In this document: in pieces, positions 14,771-22,517 of the stretch | Layout: each line of letters begins with the position of its first letter | Position numbering within the stretch: position 1 is the first letter of the stretch | DNA from: an uncultured Dokdonia sp. | Lineage (GTDB): Bacteria; Bacteroidota; Bacteroidia; Flavobacteriales; Flavobacteriaceae | Reading direction: 5' to 3' | Assembly (NCBI RefSeq): GCF_947492535.1 | Contig: NZ_CANLNH010000001.1 | Location: 496,001 to 560,000 of the forward strand | Length of the DNA stretch: 64,000 bases | The notes under the pieces: model-generated | Databases searched by the model: none | Told to the model about the DNA's origin: nothing | What the model saw: only the letters and a program-made list of their open reading frames with translations | Translations under genes and position numbers: made by a program

Positions 14771-15586
14771 ATGATGAAATCGTATTTATATACAGCAATA
14801 CAAGCTGCAATTGATGGTGGTAAAGCCATCATGGAAATATATGCAACAGATTTTGATGTGATCATCAAAGATGACGAATCTCCTTTAACCATAGCAGATA
14901 AGAATGCAAATGCTATTATTAATGAGTATTTGAAAACAACACCTATTCCCATAATAAGTGAAGAAAATAAACAGTTGGCATATACAGATAGAAAAGACTG
15001 GGATAGCTGTTGGATTGTAGATCCATTGGATGGAACAAAAGAATTTATAAAACGCAACGGGGAATTTACAGTCAATATCGCATTAGTGCGTGAAGGAGCC
15101 CCCTTTTTAGGGGTTATTTATATTCCGGTGTCTAAAACCTTGTACTTTACTTCTGAAGCAGGTACAAGCTCATATAAGTATATGGTAGATGTGACTAAGG
15201 AAATTAATGTAGAAGAAATCGTTACAAATGCCACTGAAATTTCTCCTTCAATAAAGGAAGACAGCGTTAAAGTTTTGGGAAGTCGTTCTCATCTTAATGA
15301 TGCGACAAAAGGATTTATTTCAGAAATAGAAAAAAACCATAAGGTAGAGATTCTCTCTAGAGGAAGTTCTTTGAAATTCTGTGTTATAGCAGAAGGAGAG
15401 GCCCATATATATCCTCGTTTTGCTCCTACAATGGAGTGGGACACAGCTGCAGGACATGCTATATGTAAAGCCGTGGGTGTTGAAGTAATTGATCAAGAGA
15501 CACAACAACCGCTACAGTACAATAAAGAAAATTTATTAAACCCTTATTTCTTGGTAAATTCTTTGAAGAACCCTTCTTTTAATTAG
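14771..15586 (+). CDS. cysQ: 3'(2'),5'-bisphosphate nucleotidase CysQ
   Basis: Dephosphorylates 3'-phosphoadenosine 5'-phosphate (PAP), the by-product of every PAPS-using sulfotransferase and of PAPS reductase. It belongs to the inositol monophosphatase fold: a metal-site Glu in SEEN, the WIVDPLDGTKEFI signature (around residue 84) and the C-terminal WDTAAGHAI block. Length 271. It heads the sulfate-activation group, with cysC and cysD downstream on the same strand. In a cell that sulfates macromolecules, removing PAP keeps the reaction going, which fits the sulfotransferase fusion nearby. Confidence 0.94.
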   Translation: MMKSYLYTAIQAAIDGGKAIMEIYATDFDVIIKDDESPLTIADKNANAIINEYLKTTPIPIISEENKQLAYTDRKDWDSCWIVDPLDGTKEFIKRNGEFTVNIALVREGAPFLGVIYIPVSKTLYFTSEAGTSSYKYMVDVTKEINVEEIVTNATEISPSIKEDSVKVLGSRSHLNDATKGFISEIEKNHKVEILSRGSSLKFCVIAEGEAHIYPRFAPTMEWDTAAGHAICKAVGVEVIDQETQQPLQYNKENLLNPYFLVNSLKNPSFN

Positions 15587-15932: not shown

Positions 15933-16535
15933 ATGCAGGAACATATAATTCCACATAATTTTAGTGTTGATATTGAACAGCTTAAAGCTATAAAGAATCA
16001 TAACCCTTTTCTGATATGGTTTACAGGTCTGTCTGGTTCTGGAAAATCTACGATTGCAAATGCATTAAATCAGTGTTTGCTAGAAAAAAAAATCCATACC
16101 TGTATACTAGATGGGGATAGTGTGCGAAAAGGGTTAAGTAGTGATTTGACTTTTTCTCCAGAAGATCGTAGAGAAAATATTCGGCGTATTGCAGAAGTGG
16201 CTAGCTTAATGATTAATCATGCGGGTTTAGTTGTATTAGGTGCTTTTATTTCGCCTTACAAAAGAGATAGAGAACGTGTTAGAGAAATTGTAGGAGCAGA
16301 TAAATATATAGAAGTATATGTAAGTACGCCTTTAGAGGTTTGTGAAGAGCAAGATGTAAAAGGATTATATAAAAAGGCGAGAGCAGGACTTATAAAAGAC
16401 TTTACAGGAATAGATGCTCCTTATGAAGTACCTTCAACTCCAGATATAGAAATTGATGCTACAACCTGTACAATAGAAGAAGCAGCTTCTGTTGTGTTAA
16501 CGTATATTGAAAAGAAACTAGTGAGTAATGGGTAA
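15933..16535 (+). CDS. cysC: Adenylylsulfate (APS) kinase
   Basis: Phosphorylates APS to PAPS, the activated sulfate used by sulfotransferases. The 200-residue protein has the P-loop GLSGSGKST (residues 32-40), the DGDSVRKGL APS-binding segment, ENIRRIAEV, and the FISPYKRDRERVRE lid. It overlaps cysD by 8 bases, so the two are translationally coupled. It is a stand-alone kinase, not fused to CysN. Organisms that only assimilate sulfate can reduce APS directly, so a dedicated kinase is one hint that PAPS is needed here. Confidence 0.96.
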   Translation: MQEHIIPHNFSVDIEQLKAIKNHNPFLIWFTGLSGSGKSTIANALNQCLLEKKIHTCILDGDSVRKGLSSDLTFSPEDRRENIRRIAEVASLMINHAGLVVLGAFISPYKRDRERVREIVGADKYIEVYVSTPLEVCEEQDVKGLYKKARAGLIKDFTGIDAPYEVPSTPDIEIDATTCTIEEAASVVLTYIEKKLVSNG

Positions 16536-17433
16536 ATACTATTTAAACTATTTGGACGAATTAGAGTCAGAAGCAATTTATATTTTAAGAGAAGTTGCGG
16601 CACAGTTTGAAAAGCCTGTGATTCTTTTTTCAGGAGGAAAGGACTCTATCCTAGTAACATACCTTGCCAAAAAAGCCTTTTACCCGGCTGCGATTCCATT
16701 TCCGTTATTACACATTGATACAGGGCATAATTTTCCTGAAACGATACAATTTAGAGATCATTTAGTACATACGTTAGGTGTACAGTTACTTGTAGGGTCT
16801 GTTCAGGAATCTATAAATCAAGGAAGGGTTTTAGAAGAAAAAGGGCAACATGCAACGAGAAATGCATTGCAAACAACCACATTGTTAGACGCTATTGAAG
16901 AACATCATATAGACTGTGCAATAGGAGGGGGAAGACGTGATGAGGAGAAAGCGAGAGCAAAAGAACGATTCTTCTCCCATCGTGATGATTTTGGGTCTTG
17001 GGATCCAAAAAATCAACGCCCAGAATTATGGAATATCCTGAACGGAAAACATTTTGAAGGTGAGCATTTCAGAGCATTTCCAATAAGTAATTGGACAGAG
17101 ATGGATGTTTGGAATTATATACTTAGAGAACGTATAGAGGTGCCTTCACTATATTTTGCACATCAACGTAAAGTCGTGTGGAGAAATGAATCTTGGATTC
17201 CGGTATCTGACTATTTAATTAAAAGAGAAGGAGAAGAAATTCAATCAAAAAAAGTACGCTTTAGAACCCTTGGTGATATAACCATTACGGGTGGTTTAGA
17301 AAGTGATGCCGATACGCTTGAAAAAATTGTAGCTGAGGTAGCGATGATGAAACAAACGGAAAGGGGTAACCGTGCAGATGATAAACGTAGCGAATCTGCT
17401 ATGGAAGATCGAAAAAAACAAGGCTATTTTTAA
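16528..17433 (+). CDS. cysD: Sulfate adenylyltransferase subunit 2 CysD
   Basis: The ATP-PPi-exchanging subunit of ATP sulfurylase, which makes APS from sulfate and ATP together with the GTPase CysN. The PP-loop FSGGKDS (34-40) and the GGGRRDEEKARAKER block are intact, as is the family C-terminus (ERGNRADDKRSESAMEDRK). Length 301. The start overlaps the end of cysC. Unusually, the partner cysN is not the next gene on this strand but lies convergent, 64 bases away. Confidence 0.97.
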   Translation: MGKYYLNYLDELESEAIYILREVAAQFEKPVILFSGGKDSILVTYLAKKAFYPAAIPFPLLHIDTGHNFPETIQFRDHLVHTLGVQLLVGSVQESINQGRVLEEKGQHATRNALQTTTLLDAIEEHHIDCAIGGGRRDEEKARAKERFFSHRDDFGSWDPKNQRPELWNILNGKHFEGEHFRAFPISNWTEMDVWNYILRERIEVPSLYFAHQRKVVWRNESWIPVSDYLIKREGEEIQSKKVRFRTLGDITITGGLESDADTLEKIVAEVAMMKQTERGNRADDKRSESAMEDRKKQGYF

Positions 17434-17497: not shown

Positions 17498-18754
17498 CTA
17501 TAATATCATGCCAGCAGCCACGGTCTCATGGGTGTTGTCATCTATCAAAATAAAACTTCCCGTAACACGATTATCTCGATATTCATCTATTAATAAAGGA
17601 CGTGTTGTCCTCACTTTAATACGGGCAATGTCGTTCATTTTTAAATCTTTATTCTCTACCTCTCGCTGATAAGTGTCAATATCTATTTTGTATACTACTT
17701 CCTTAATCATTGCTTTTTGTTCATTGGTAGTGTGAAGTATAGTATATTTTGTTCTTGGACGTGCTGTATGTGTATGTAACCAGCAAATCATTGCATCAAA
17801 TTCTTGTGTTTGTTTAGGAGTGTTATTTTTTTTGATAATCATATCTCCTCTACTTACATCAATATCGTCTTCTAATGTAATCGTAATAGACATAGGTGCA
17901 TAGGCTTCCTGTAAAGGTCCATCACTTGTGTCTATTGATTTGATCGTAGAGGAAAAGCCAGAAGGAAGTATCGTTACTTTATCATTAGGTCTAAAAATAC
18001 CACTTGCTACACGACCTGCATACCCTCTGTAATCAAGGAAGTCTTTGCTTTGAGGTCTTAACACTGTTTGAACAGGAAAACGAGCATCTATTTTATTAAT
18101 ATCACTACTAATATGCATATGTTCTAATGTATATAGTAATGGCGCATCCTGAAACCAAGGCATGTGTTCAGATCTATTAACTACGTTATCTCCATGTAAG
18201 GCACTAATAGGAATAAAACGAATATCTTTTACATATAATTTTGAAGAGAACTCTTCAAATTGAGAACGGATAGTATCATAAACTTTTTCAGAATAATCAA
18301 CCAAATCCATTTTATTGATGCACACAATAATATGTGGTATTTGTAGTAAAGAAGCTATGAATGCATGTCTTTTGGTTTGCTCAATAATTCCATGGCGTGC
18401 ATCTATTAATATAAGGGCGACATTTGCCGTAGAAGCACCTGTCACCATATTACGCGTATATTGAATATGGCCTGGCGTATCAGCAATAATAAATTTACGT
18501 TTTGGAGTGGTAAAATAGCGATACGCTACATCTATGGTAATACCTTGTGCTCTCTCATCTCTTAACCCATCTGTAAATAAAGCTAAATCTATATTTTCAT
18601 GACCTTTGCGTTTACTTATAGATGATACAGATTCTAATTGATCTTCAAAAATAGCTTTAGAGTCATATAAGAGTCGTCCAATAAGCGTACTCTTTCCATC
18701 ATCTACACTCCCAGCTGTAGTAAAACGCAGTAATTGATTATTATTTATGATCAT
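17498..18754 (-). CDS. cysN: Sulfate adenylyltransferase subunit 1 CysN (GTPase)
   Basis: The EF-Tu-like regulatory GTPase of ATP sulfurylase; GTP hydrolysis drives APS formation by CysD. The P-loop is GSVDDGKST (15-23), with DTPGH and NKMD further on. Length 418, without a fused APS-kinase domain. The usual cysDN order is broken: the gene is inverted and convergent with cysD, which implies a local inversion or independent control. An 18755-18843 stretch separates it from the hairpin of the upstream gene; no clear -7 box is seen there. A degenerate piece of the dispersed palindrome may lie at 17478-17491. Confidence 0.96.
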   Translation of the reverse strand: MIINNNQLLRFTTAGSVDDGKSTLIGRLLYDSKAIFEDQLESVSSISKRKGHENIDLALFTDGLRDERAQGITIDVAYRYFTTPKRKFIIADTPGHIQYTRNMVTGASTANVALILIDARHGIIEQTKRHAFIASLLQIPHIIVCINKMDLVDYSEKVYDTIRSQFEEFSSKLYVKDIRFIPISALHGDNVVNRSEHMPWFQDAPLLYTLEHMHISSDINKIDARFPVQTVLRPQSKDFLDYRGYAGRVASGIFRPNDKVTILPSGFSSTIKSIDTSDGPLQEAYAPMSITITLEDDIDVSRGDMIIKKNNTPKQTQEFDAMICWLHTHTARPRTKYTILHTTNEQKAMIKEVVYKIDIDTYQREVENKDLKMNDIARIKVRTTRPLLIDEYRDNRVTGSFILIDDNTHETVAAGMIL

Positions 18755-18898: not shown

Positions 18899-19684
18899 TT
18901 ATTTTACAAACTTTATAGCTTGTAATTTACCTTCTACGGCTACTGTTGCAATATATACACCAGTGCTTAATCCATTAAGATTTACAGTTTCTGTTGTGTT
19001 AGATAATTTCTGAGAAATTACCTTTTGACCAGAAATACTGTGAATAGTAACAGCTTCTAATGGAGTTCTAGCATTTAATGTAAGAACGTTATCAGAAACA
19101 AAAGAAGAGAATCCTTCAATAGTGTTATCTTCTAAAGAAAGTGCTCCTTCTCCTGCCATGATAGATTCACCAGCTACTGAATTAAAAGCAAAATCTTTAA
19201 TGGTCATTTCGTTACCAGCAGCAATAATATCTAAACGAGCCCATCCATAGAACGTTTCTCCTCCAACATTGATAGATAATCCCATATAACCGTCAGTAAC
19301 TCCTCCACACCATTGGCTATTTGGATAGTTACAAGAATTAAAGTTATTATCAGCTCTTGCAGCAGTAACAAATGAAGCAGCAGCATCTATAACAGTTCCT
19401 TCCGTTAAATTCGAACCGTAGTTGTATCCACTAGCAGTAAACCCAACAAATCCATTAGAACTTAAGGCATACATTACAGCGCCGGCAGAATTGAAAATTT
19501 GAAAATCAAAATCGTTTGTTCCATCTCCATTTAAATCAACCATAAAAGATTCTGAAGCTGGACCCATTGCTTGATCAGGGTCAATATCTGTATAGACGAT
19601 TTGCCCACTAGCATCTGCAATTCCCATAAGGGCAACAGACATAGCTCCGTAATTTAATAATTTTTTTGAAGTAATTTTTTTCAT
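18899..19684 (-). CDS. Type IX secretion system cargo with type A sorting domain
   Basis: A 261-residue exported protein. The N-terminus is a signal peptide (MKKITSKKLLNYG then a hydrophobic stretch, cleaved near residue 27). The body has a VDLNGDGTNDFDF segment resembling a dockerin/EF-hand calcium loop. The last 70 residues are a type A C-terminal sorting domain: LEAVTIHSISGQKV, LNGLSTGVYIATV and a terminal KFVK. Such proteins cross the outer membrane by T9SS and are attached to the surface or released. The body family is not recognised. Four cysteines cluster in the middle (NSCNYPNSQWCGG). It lies between cysN and the small gene at 19806, divergent from the latter. Confidence 0.88.
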   Translation of the reverse strand: MKKITSKKLLNYGAMSVALMGIADASGQIVYTDIDPDQAMGPASESFMVDLNGDGTNDFDFQIFNSAGAVMYALSSNGFVGFTASGYNYGSNLTEGTVIDAAASFVTAARADNNFNSCNYPNSQWCGGVTDGYMGLSINVGGETFYGWARLDIIAAGNEMTIKDFAFNSVAGESIMAGEGALSLEDNTIEGFSSFVSDNVLTLNARTPLEAVTIHSISGQKVISQKLSNTTETVNLNGLSTGVYIATVAVEGKLQAIKFVK

Positions 19685-19973: not shown

Positions 19974-22517
19974 ATGGGCAAGAAAAAATTATTATTGATA
20001 GGTTGGGATGCTGCAGATTGGAAAATTATAGGTCCGTTGATGGCAAAAGGGCAGATGCCTGCTTTAAAAAAAATGATAGAAAATGGAGTTCATGGTAATA
20101 TAAGTACCATGAATCCTCCATATTCTCCAATGTTATGGACGTCTGTAGCTACTGGAAAAACAGCAGATAAACATGGAGTATTAGGATTTATTGAAATAAT
20201 GCCAGATTTGGGAGGAGTACGACCTGTTACTGCACATTCCAGAAAAACAAGAGCTATATGGAATATCTTACATAATCAAGGATATAAAAGTAATCTAGTA
20301 GGTTGGTGGCCTAGTCATCCTGCAGAACCTATTAATGGAGTTGTTATCTCTGATAAATTTCAAAAAGTAAATATAGATCCTAATATTCCAAGCCCTCTTG
20401 ATGAAGAGACAATACATCCAAAAGATGTAACAAAGGATTTTAAGGATTTAAGAATGTTTCCTTTTGAAATAACAAAAGAACATATTCTCCCTTTTATGCC
20501 AAATGCTGCCAAGTTAGATCAAACAAAGAATAATGGAATTCAAACTTTTGCAAAAGTTATGACAGAAAATGTTTCTGTTCATAATGCAGCTACACGATTA
20601 TTAAGGACATCAGAGTGGGATTTTATGGGGGTGTATTATGATTTAATAGATCATATGTGTCATGGTTTTATGAAGTATCATCCTCCAAAATTAAAGGCAA
20701 TCTCCGAAGAATTTTACGATATATATAAGGACATGGTAGCGAGTGCTTATCGTTTTCAAGATATGATGCTAGGTCGTATGTTAGAATTAATAGATGAAAA
20801 TACGACAGTGATTGTTATGTCTGATCATGGTTTTGAATCTGGAAGTAAACGCATATTGAAAATGCCCAAAGTACAAGCCGCAGCTGCTTTAGAACATAGG
20901 CAGTTTGGAATGTTTGTCGCTATGGGACCTAATATCAAAAAGAATGAAAAGGTATTTGGGTTGGGATTGATGGATATCGCACCTACCATTTTACATCATT
21001 TTGGACTCCCTATAGGTAAAGATATGGATGGGAAAGTATCCTTAGATATTTTTAAAGAATTTAAAGAACCCGTTTTTATTGACAGTTGGGATACTATATC
21101 TGGTGATTTTGGTGAATTGGGGAAAAATAACTCAACAGCTACTTTTTCAGATCAAGATGCAATGGAGCAACTAATAGAATTAGGATATATAGAACGTCCT
21201 GATGAAAAAAAGGAAGTAGCAATTTTGAAAACCAAATGTGATTTAAAACATAATTTAGCAAAAGTATACTTAGGTAAAAAAGATTATGAGAAGTCTAAAG
21301 AATTGTTATTAGAATTAATCTTAGAAGAAGACCCTATTGATGTGACTCCTTATTATATAGATTTAATCAATATAAGTTTACATAATAAAGATTTTGAAAA
21401 GGCTGAAAACTATCTTGAAGAAGTTAGGAAATTAGGAAATAAAGTTGGATATAATTTATTTCTTATAGAAGCAGAAATATATGAAAAGACAGGACGATTA
21501 CTAAAAGCTTTAGATTTACTTGAGAAAGTAGAAAAAATAAGATCAAATTCTGAAGTTTTATATAGAATTGGAAAAATAAAATATCAATTAACAAGATTTG
21601 AAGAAGCTAAAACTGCTTTTGAGAATGCAATAAAAATTGAATCAGATAGAGCAAAATATCATAGGGCTATTGCAGAAGTTTATATAGAGTTAGGTGATTA
21701 CGAAGAAGCTGTAGATTATGCACTAACAAGTATAGAATTAGTGAGGTTTTATCCTGCAGCTCATTTTGTATTAGGTAGAGCTCTAGAAAAATTAGGTGAT
21801 TTAGAAAATGCTAAAATTGCGTATGAAACAGCAGAAAGGTTACAGCCAAAAAACTATGAGCGATCAAAGATAGCTAAAGAAAATGTTATAGAGTTACAGC
21901 ATTTATCTGCAGGAAATTCAGAAAAGAAATATTTTAAGCATGATAAAAATCAGATAGTTGTCGTTTCAGGATTACCTCGCTCAGGGACATCTCTAATGAT
22001 GCAAATGCTAGCCAAAGGGGGACAAGAAATTTTGACAGATAAAAATAGAAAAGCTGATGAGTCTAATCCTAAAGGGTATTATGAATATGACCCAGTTATG
22101 TCTATCCATAAAGATAATTCTTGGTTAGAAGAGGCAAAGAATAAAGGGGTTAAGATTGTGGCTCCGTTGCTAAAGTATTTGGATACTAAATATAGATATA
22201 AAATTATCTTTATGGTTAGAGATTTAAATGAAGTGGTTAAATCACAACAGGTAATGCGTGGTAAAGATTCAAATACGATGCCTTTAAAACTTTATGATGC
22301 ATATCAAAATTTGTTAAAAGGGGTTGATCTATGGAAGGAAAAAGAGCCTGGAGTAGAGATGATTTATATAAATTATAAAGAAGCTATAGAGAAACCTGAG
22401 GATGTAGTAGAAAAAGTTGTCGAGTTTATTGGAAAAGAGAATTTAGATAAATCAGCCATGGTACGTTGTGTTGATAAAAAATTATATAGAAATCGATCTA
22501 AGAAGGTTGAGAAGTGA
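19974..22517 (+). CDS. Phosphodiesterase-TPR-sulfotransferase fusion protein
   Basis: An 847-residue protein with three parts. Residues 1 to about 370 are an alkaline-phosphatase-superfamily (type I phosphodiesterase) domain: Asp12 in LIGWDAADW, nucleophile-like Ser51 in NPPYSPMLW, Asp226-His227 and Asp284-His285 in MSDHGF. Residues of about 400-640 are TPR helices (for example AKTAFENAIKIESDRAKYHR). Residues of about 655-847 are a sulfotransferase: the 5'-phosphosulfate loop GLPRSGTS at 666-673, and FMVRDLNEVVKSQ near 746 for the 3'-phosphate. There is no signal peptide or membrane helix, so a cytoplasmic site is likely. Next to cysQCDN it is the probable consumer of PAPS. The acceptor is unknown. 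Confidence 0.88.
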   Translation: MGKKKLLLIGWDAADWKIIGPLMAKGQMPALKKMIENGVHGNISTMNPPYSPMLWTSVATGKTADKHGVLGFIEIMPDLGGVRPVTAHSRKTRAIWNILHNQGYKSNLVGWWPSHPAEPINGVVISDKFQKVNIDPNIPSPLDEETIHPKDVTKDFKDLRMFPFEITKEHILPFMPNAAKLDQTKNNGIQTFAKVMTENVSVHNAATRLLRTSEWDFMGVYYDLIDHMCHGFMKYHPPKLKAISEEFYDIYKDMVASAYRFQDMMLGRMLELIDENTTVIVMSDHGFESGSKRILKMPKVQAAAALEHRQFGMFVAMGPNIKKNEKVFGLGLMDIAPTILHHFGLPIGKDMDGKVSLDIFKEFKEPVFIDSWDTISGDFGELGKNNSTATFSDQDAMEQLIELGYIERPDEKKEVAILKTKCDLKHNLAKVYLGKKDYEKSKELLLELILEEDPIDVTPYYIDLINISLHNKDFEKAENYLEEVRKLGNKVGYNLFLIEAEIYEKTGRLLKALDLLEKVEKIRSNSEVLYRIGKIKYQLTRFEEAKTAFENAIKIESDRAKYHRAIAEVYIELGDYEEAVDYALTSIELVRFYPAAHFVLGRALEKLGDLENAKIAYETAERLQPKNYERSKIAKENVIELQHLSAGNSEKKYFKHDKNQIVVVSGLPRSGTSLMMQMLAKGGQEILTDKNRKADESNPKGYYEYDPVMSIHKDNSWLEEAKNKGVKIVAPLLKYLDTKYRYKIIFMVRDLNEVVKSQQVMRGKDSNTMPLKLYDAYQNLLKGVDLWKEKEPGVEMIYINYKEAIEKPEDVVEKVVEFIGKENLDKSAMVRCVDKKLYRNRSKKVEK

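Follow-up and report, generated by a model that had tools for sequence, protein, structure and literature searches.

A phosphodiesterase-type, TPR and sulfotransferase fusion protein from Dokdonia and a secreted partner protein as its candidate substrate

To our knowledge, very few cases of protein sulfation in bacteria are known. The nearest described system to the one considered here is RaxST–RaxX of Xanthomonas, in which a tyrosylprotein sulfotransferase is reported to be encoded beside its secreted peptide substrate (PMC6637879); according to the same paper, the RaxX precursor comprises 60 residues, components of a predicted type I system are also encoded there, and a full rax cluster was detected only in Xanthomonas. 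The subject of this analysis is a gene for an 847-residue protein in an uncultured Dokdonia sp. (NCBI RefSeq assembly GCF_947492535.1), located at 19974–22517 (+) of a 64,000-nucleotide stretch of contig NZ_CANLNH010000001.1 (forward strand, positions 496,001–560,000) that is referred to as the window. Its product joins an alkaline-phosphatase-superfamily domain, a tetratricopeptide repeat (TPR) superhelix and a 3′-phosphoadenosine 5′-phosphosulfate (PAPS) sulfotransferase domain, and it is encoded next to a secreted protein, termed the partner. The individual domains of this fusion are of known kinds.

As reported for RaxST–RaxX, a sulfotransferase gene lies beside a secreted-protein gene, here in 68 of 80 homologous loci. 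Unlike RaxX, the partner is larger and folded and bears a Sec-type leader and exchangeable sorting tails, the tail in the window being of the type IX secretion system (T9SS); unlike RaxST, the fusion enzyme has two extra domains and occurs in at least four phyla. Bacterial TPR-sulfotransferases, in which a TPR part precedes a Sulfotransfer_3 domain, are common and of mostly unknown function; the fusion has the same order of these two parts and differs in the metal-dependent phosphohydrolase-type domain added N-terminally. In fold and metal-ligand set, that added domain resembles NPP/ENPP enzymes and single-domain 'Phosphodiest' proteins, although it departs from NPP/ENPP in its predicted serine nucleophile, in a phenylalanine (Phe72) replacing an asparagine, in showing no signal peptide by eye and in being fused. 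The animal N-deacetylase/N-sulfotransferase NDST, a Golgi enzyme acting on a glycan substrate, offers a further likeness as a single polypeptide that removes one group and then adds sulfate, whereas its N-terminal domain is not known to be related. No description of the fusion or of the enzyme–partner pair was found among the titles and abstract openings listed from the open-access literature, subscription papers and preprints lying largely outside that search.

The fusion gene and its domains

The gene is one uninterrupted open reading frame (ORF) from the ATG at 19974 to the stop ending at 22517. Residues 1–408 (19974–21197, +) constitute the alkaline-phosphatase-superfamily or NPP-fold domain, with a match to Phosphodiest (PF01663) over residues 6–318 (E 5e-29). 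Residues 409–655 (21198–21938, +) make up the TPR superhelix, covered by several Pfam TPR models over residues ~420–630 (best E 2e-22) and appearing as paired helices in the AlphaFold2 model. The PAPS sulfotransferase domain occupies residues 656–847 (21939–22514, +), of which residues 662–823 match Sulfotransfer_3 (PF13469, 35.8 bits, cut-off 27) and Sulfotransfer_1 (PF00685, 29.9 bits, cut-off 22). The structural model is confident along nearly the entire chain (mean pLDDT 89.4, pTM 0.82), and no signal peptide is apparent by eye. The order of the three parts, proposed in an initial annotation made from the letters alone, is borne out by the Pfam scan and by homologues. A search of genome contigs returned 163 relatives, the best 80 of which were taken as the homologous loci for all 80-locus counts. 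These 80 align over nearly their full length at 35–72% identity (best segment); the closest belongs to an uncultured Dokdonia (72%), the most distant (about 35%) are proteobacterial and other records, including one titled Sulfotelmatobacter, and by record titles at least four phyla are represented. All three parts lie in a single ORF, the longest ORF measuring at least 826 aa, in 77 of the 80 loci; at L033, L058 and L069 the match is split over two ORFs.

Conservation is given per aligned row; of the alignments selected for other purposes, A2 comprises the window and 77 of the 80 fusion rows (the three split ones being dropped), A4 31 rows and A5 32 rows. The predicted active-site residues of the N-terminal domain (20007–20897, +) are D12 (20007), S51 (20124), D226 (20649), H230 (20661), D284 (20823), H285 (20826) and H308 (20895). 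Asp12 and Ser51 are identical in 80/80 rows, and Asp226, Asp284 and His285, as well as His230 and His308, in 81/81. The loss of metal residues on alignment, which the annotation had named as a refuting result, is not seen, and its list of Asp12, Ser51, Asp226, Asp284 and His285 stands; His227, which it also listed, is kept in only 76 of 81 rows, and His230 and His308 had been overlooked. Since the latter two occupy what we take to be the places of the expected metal-binding histidine after the second aspartate and of the third histidine, His227 is probably not the metal ligand, and His230 and His308 fit instead. Membership of the alkaline phosphatase superfamily is indicated by the Pfam match, the fold, the six predicted metal-ligand positions and a Ser or Thr at the nucleophile position. 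Ser51 aligns with the threonine of Xac NPP and with that of phosphonoacetate hydrolase, and Phe72 (80/80) takes the alignment place of the NPP asparagine. A threonine nucleophile and an asparagine after HGI are presumably the hallmarks of NPP; with Ser51 in 80/80 rows instead of threonine and Phe72 instead of asparagine, the domain is, judged by its sequence, no standard NPP.

In the sulfotransferase domain, GLPRSGTS lies at residues 666–673 (21969–21992, +), exactly where it had been reported, with G, P, R, G, T and S kept in 79/79 rows, L in 75/79 and the first S in 74/79. This segment we take to be the 5′-phosphosulfate loop, and R749 (80/80) with S757 (79/80), at 22218–22244 (+), to be the 3′-phosphate-binding motif. 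The family scores, GxPRxGTS in 79/79 rows, R749/S757 and the PAPS-making genes of the host all accord with a PAPS sulfotransferase, and the sulfotransferase profile A5 retrieved SULT1A entries (best E 2e-7). In the TPR part, His597 is invariant (81/81).

Four genome samples were searched for the fusion, with 3–9 candidates scored per genome in the first pass. It was found in 17 genomes of a family sample (149 genomes, one per genus), as six complete copies in four genomes of a proteobacterial class sample (229 genomes, one additional genome having a contig-edge sulfotransferase fragment), as ten copies in nine genomes of the class sample around Desulfocapsa (192 genomes), and in two genomes of a phylum sample (296 genomes). 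The arrangement had been called unusual, and 17/149 and 2/296 do make it uncommon. In the Desulfocapsa-class sample the fused family scores below E 1e-190, with all parts in one ORF in 10/10 close relatives; the unfused homologues among the candidates scored there were distant phosphodiesterase-type ones alone (ORFs of 365–756 aa, E 1e-30 to 1e-10). No single-part homologue outside the fusion is listed at E 1e-25 among the candidates scored in the phylum sample, and the sole further fusion match in the window's own genome is weak and chiefly covers the TPR part. In a tree of 64 rows, which leaves out roughly two in three of the close Flavobacteriaceae, Bacteroidota are split from the other phyla by a single branch (support 98), and this sample gives no indication that the gene passed recently from one side to the other. 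Because the phyla separate in this way, the family looks old and repeatedly lost. An origin on mobile elements was considered and rejected, no fusion match at E 1e-20 occurring among 72,556 plasmid records.

A natural unfused counterpart exists in genome G304 of the proteobacterial class sample (L103:4386–6322, −), where a sulfotransferase gene is separated by 2 bp from one of phosphodiesterase type, and neither a TPR part nor a partner is present. The sulfotransferase belongs to the same subfamily and is 43% identical to that of the window, and the phosphodiesterase-type gene is only distantly similar. As both genes are separate there and yet only 2 bp apart, the view that the two activities belong to one pathway gains some support; the pair also hints that the two catalytic kinds can associate without TPR part or partner.

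The secreted partner and its leader

The partner gene (18899–19684, −; 261 aa) is divergent from the fusion and 289 bp away. The initial annotation of the fusion had passed over this neighbour, which is the strongest clue to function, and also the PAPS-making genes upstream. It encodes a leader (residues 1–27, 19604–19684, −; KKLLNYGAMSVALMG) containing KLLNY, with the Tyr12 codon from 19651, a beta-strand domain with YGW at 146–148 that forms the body (residues 28–185, 19130–19603, −), and a T9SS type A sorting domain (residues 202–261, 18902–19081, −; TIGR04183, 44.5 bits, cut-off 23). Searches for the partner were seeded with residues 1–185 only, to keep sorting tails from driving the matches, and the profile was rebuilt over successive rounds from ORFs of the 80 homologous loci themselves, a single-sequence round giving 80 ORFs and later rounds 89; the local E-values of these searches refer to small ORF sets. 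This profile search places a partner homologue next to the fusion in 68 of the 80 loci; the median distance to the nearest copy is 199 bp, and in 60 of the 68 it is within 500 bp. The arrangement relative to the fusion varies, the partner being upstream in opposite orientation in 27 loci, downstream in the same orientation in another 27, and downstream opposite or upstream same in 7 each, and 13 loci contain multiple copies. When all ORFs of the 80 loci were clustered, the fusion family was present in 80 and the partner in 65; the next-commonest neighbour families reached at most 19/80 loci, nearly all in Flavobacteriaceae.

In the family sample, a partner match is present in 22/149 genomes, comprising 17/17 fusion genomes versus 5/132 others (Fisher 3e-18, genomes being treated as independent). 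The partner adjoins the fusion in 16 of the 17, and the seventeenth, G106, has a 34-residue match on a different contig; the five fusion-less genomes divide into two with clear matches (G083, G100) and three with weak ones inside large ORFs. APS kinase occurs in 17/17 enzyme genomes of this sample versus 57/132 others. In the proteobacterial class sample a partner-like ORF lies beside 6/6 complete fusions (local E 5e-6 for the weakest match), and in the Desulfocapsa-class sample beside 8/10. In the phylum sample, partner-body matches occur in 14 genomes, all but one without a detected fusion; in most of the 13 fusion-less genomes the match starts past the leader region, and several such matches lie in ORFs of 700–1500 aa.

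The leader motif was defined as [KRQ][LIMF]xxY beginning 2–16 residues after a Met. It is present in 75 of the 89 linked partner copies and in 7 of 11 partners from later loci. Of the 438 non-partner ORFs from the loci of the 89 copies, 43 carry it, but none of the 98 among them whose N-terminus resembles a signal. Among partner homologues from genomes without detected fusion it is found in 0/9, a count confined to small homologues that leaves out the large ORFs of L113, L114, L115, L117, L118 and L120, the weak G434 and G491, and also G030, G068 and G081. A looser form of the motif gives 77/89 versus 73/438. Tyr12 is kept at ≥90% in both partner alignments (A1, built from 40 of the 89 partner ORFs plus the window, and A3, from 58 of them plus the window), and residues 7–25 of the partner model, which fall within the leader, have pLDDT <50. 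Outside Bacteroidota, some partners have the motif as a separate segment ahead of a hydrophobic signal, as in TLDERLRQY of L164. Genome G021, in which the enzyme is present, has three unlinked partner homologues, one of which carries the motif. To look for other proteins with the leader, a strict DNA pattern was applied to 34 genomes; it matched 24 times, in 14 of them, versus 14 times for the reversed pattern. Read in frame, these matches comprise 5 partners and a single 311-aa ORF whose motif lies 23 residues from its start, the remainder being short frames or having no Met within 25 residues; as the pattern misses most partners, this result is weak. Because the motif was derived from these very sequences, its association with the enzyme calls for testing and is no proof.

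In the 41 members scanned, the body has no match among Pfam or NCBIfam families; the fold search returned mainly the sorting domain and barely probed the body, and no claim of a new fold is made. The window's partner is the single full-length copy in its genome, other matches spanning at most residues 145–261. Different tails follow the body: a T9SS tail in the majority of scanned Bacteroidota partners (28 of the 41 A1 members match, several others being cut upstream of the tail), PEP-CTERM in L067 (TIGR02595, 28.1 bits, cut-off 16) and IPTL-CTERM in L072 (TIGR04174, 24.0 bits, cut-off 20.5). The other four of the six partners scanned with sorting-signal models (L061, L073, L077 and L165) gave no named tail, and further proteobacterial partners have PEP-like ends, judged by eye.

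Partners around Desulfocapsa (L161, L163, L164, L165 and L167) have a common tail, FNWNLFLPA(I/M), which matches no NCBIfam sorting model in L165, the one copy scanned, and is possibly a new sorting signal. Locus L165 also encodes an exosortase (L165:10935–11804, −; TIGR02602, E 3e-58, above cut-off) and a regulator resembling the PEP-CTERM-box response regulator (L165:6395–7735, below cut-off), the two lying 2–6 kb from the fusion. The partner-body domain is additionally found within large proteins (ORFs of ~700–1300 aa) at L113, L114, L115, L117, L118 and L120, in Bacteroidota without detected fusion. Long ORFs adjoining the fusion start with a reverse transcriptase domain at L057:9092–12754 (RVT_1, E 8e-10), L068:1–5346 (−; RVT_1, E 1e-8) and L162:10396–12818 (group II reverse transcriptase model, 5e-11); at L057 and L068 the partner domain lies downstream of it in the same ORF.

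Proposed function and rival explanations

The fusion is a real gene, with intact active-site residues, linkage to a partner, association with a leader motif and co-occurrence with APS kinase. From these observations we infer that the partner is the substrate, that its leader is bound by the TPR part and that the added group is sulfate, and likewise how the phosphatase-like domain acts. The fusion would be a cytosolic enzyme devoted to one secreted protein: the newly made partner would be bound by the TPR superhelix via its N-terminal leader, and the C-terminal domain would move sulfate from PAPS onto it. The N-terminal metal domain would act in the same series of steps, most simply by taking a phosphate-type group off the partner, or off a group attached to it, before sulfation. 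The modified partner would then be exported by Sec and sorted by the host's own system, T9SS here and PEP-CTERM or IPTL-CTERM elsewhere. Action before export is suggested because the enzyme has no apparent signal peptide, PAPS is cytosolic and the partner leaves the cell, and it fits with a leader that accompanies the enzyme. That the partner is the sulfated substrate and its leader is recognized by the enzyme has, in our estimate, a probability of about 0.5. As the initial annotation suggested, a phosphodiester may be removed and a sulfate added on one and the same substrate; the phosphatase-like domain would either work on the partner in series or clear 3′-phosphoadenosine 5′-phosphate (PAP).

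More tentatively, and with somewhat less confidence than in the substrate assignment itself, the locus may represent a widespread, previously undescribed modification system, in which a cytosolic enzyme reads a leader via its TPR part and swaps a phosphate-type group for sulfate (or sulfates and clears its own by-product) before export, the leader serving as an address tag and the substrate domain bearing a T9SS tail in Bacteroidota and one for exosortase sorting in other phyla. With a candidate substrate next door, an enzyme-linked leader and enzyme-less relatives, wide sulfation of bacterial secreted proteins becomes open to test; T9SS and exosortase-type sorting would moreover be connected via one common cargo domain that is nameless in the libraries searched.

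Several observations weigh against the partner as a leader-addressed substrate. The sequences in which the motif was counted are also those used to define it, and its quoted form was chosen after viewing them; 14 of the 89 linked partners, including Methylococcaceae copies, and 4 of the 11 from later loci do without it; and an earlier, longer form with one more hydrophobic position performed less well, being found in 61/100 linked partners, 1/8 enzyme-less homologues and 63/438 controls. Cleavage of the leader would remove Tyr12, and Tyr31 (QIVYTD), which lies close to the mature N-terminus and was considered as the sulfation site for its attractive acidic context, was set aside since it is kept in enzyme-less homologues. 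Genomes G083 and G100 keep partner homologues without a detected enzyme, so that the partner has an existence apart from it; G083 has three in tandem (L091:9276–11984), in which the mature start QIVYTDIEPDF is kept and the leader motif is missing. Conversely, the enzyme occurs without a detected partner at L166 (G811) and L162 (G728:C55), and G464, an enzyme genome of the phylum sample, has no partner match at E 1e-8, although a secreted neighbour matches the profile weakly (local E 6e-8). The partner is undetected in 12 of the 80 loci, several of which lie on short contigs; at two of them (L056, L082) a different secreted protein with a T9SS tail lies 36 bp past the fusion. Among the matches listed for the 27 genomes behind partner-less and other loci, at least 18 genomes have a clear body match, Saprospiraceae have distant or tail-only ones, and G149 and G157 have none. 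Finally, a PAPS cassette adjoins the fusion in only 1/80 loci (L003) within the flanks examined, and, because the window's own genome has two further Sulfotransfer_3 proteins, PAPS supply is no proof of the role of the fusion.

A distinctly less probable alternative is that the enzyme sulfates a cytosolic glycan or lipid precursor, the partner binding or anchoring the sulfated product at the surface rather than being modified itself. Bacterial sulfotransferases are reported from the synthesis of sulfated exopolysaccharides (synechan, PMC8205485); the exosortase and the PEP-CTERM-box-like regulator near the fusion of L165, one Desulfobacterota genome, and the stretch around the G304 pair, which contains a DegT-type aminotransferase and a glycosyltransferase, would suit such a pathway. 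Two radical-SAM genes and an AMP-binding enzyme are encoded in that stretch too. It is harder to reconcile with the neighbourhoods, in which no non-partner gene family exceeds 19/80 loci (smaller families being annotated in part), and with an enzyme-associated N-terminal leader, for which a mere binding protein would have no need. Slightly less probable again is a division of labour in which the sulfotransferase acts on the partner and the phosphatase-like domain destroys inhibitory PAP, or spare PAPS, thereby driving sulfation; cysQ, a separate PAP nucleotidase gene, is already near the fusion in the window, Phe72 is invariant at the NPP asparagine position, and bacterial TPR-sulfotransferases commonly manage without such a domain.

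Compared with these, mere hitch-hiking, in which fusion and partner are adjacent through common descent without joint function, is very improbable. A synteny block of Flavobacteriaceae does include both genes with idsA and others, but the linkage holds across phyla at 35–45% identity and in four orientations, no other neighbour is so widely kept, and presence and absence of enzyme and partner are concordant across genomes. An assembly or frame error joining two genes, raised by the initial annotation and suggested by the two-ORF matches at 3/80 loci, has a negligible probability: the ORF has no internal stop, the 77 single-ORF homologues refute a chimera, and the predicted structure is confident through nearly the whole chain.

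Neighbouring genes and PAPS supply

Upstream of the fusion lie the genes of a PAPS-making set plus a PAP remover. These are cysQ (14771–15586, +), a 3′(2′),5′-bisphosphate nucleotidase that removes PAP (TIGR01331, E 1e-75, above cut-off); cysC (15933–16535, +), the adenylylsulfate kinase that makes PAPS (TIGR00455, E 1e-69); cysD (16528–17433, +), the small subunit of sulfate adenylyltransferase (TIGR02039, E 8e-124); and, on the opposite strand, cysN (17498–18754, −), its large subunit (TIGR02034, E 5e-163). As a conserved neighbour of the fusion this cassette was dropped on the count of loci given above. Among 10 window neighbours scanned, none is a RaxA or RaxB type I secretion gene; the T9SS gene porT/sprT is present in the window. 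One of the two further Sulfotransfer_3 proteins of the genome is encoded ~2.2 kb past the end of the window (G000:C1:562239–562574), in an open frame of 253 aa.

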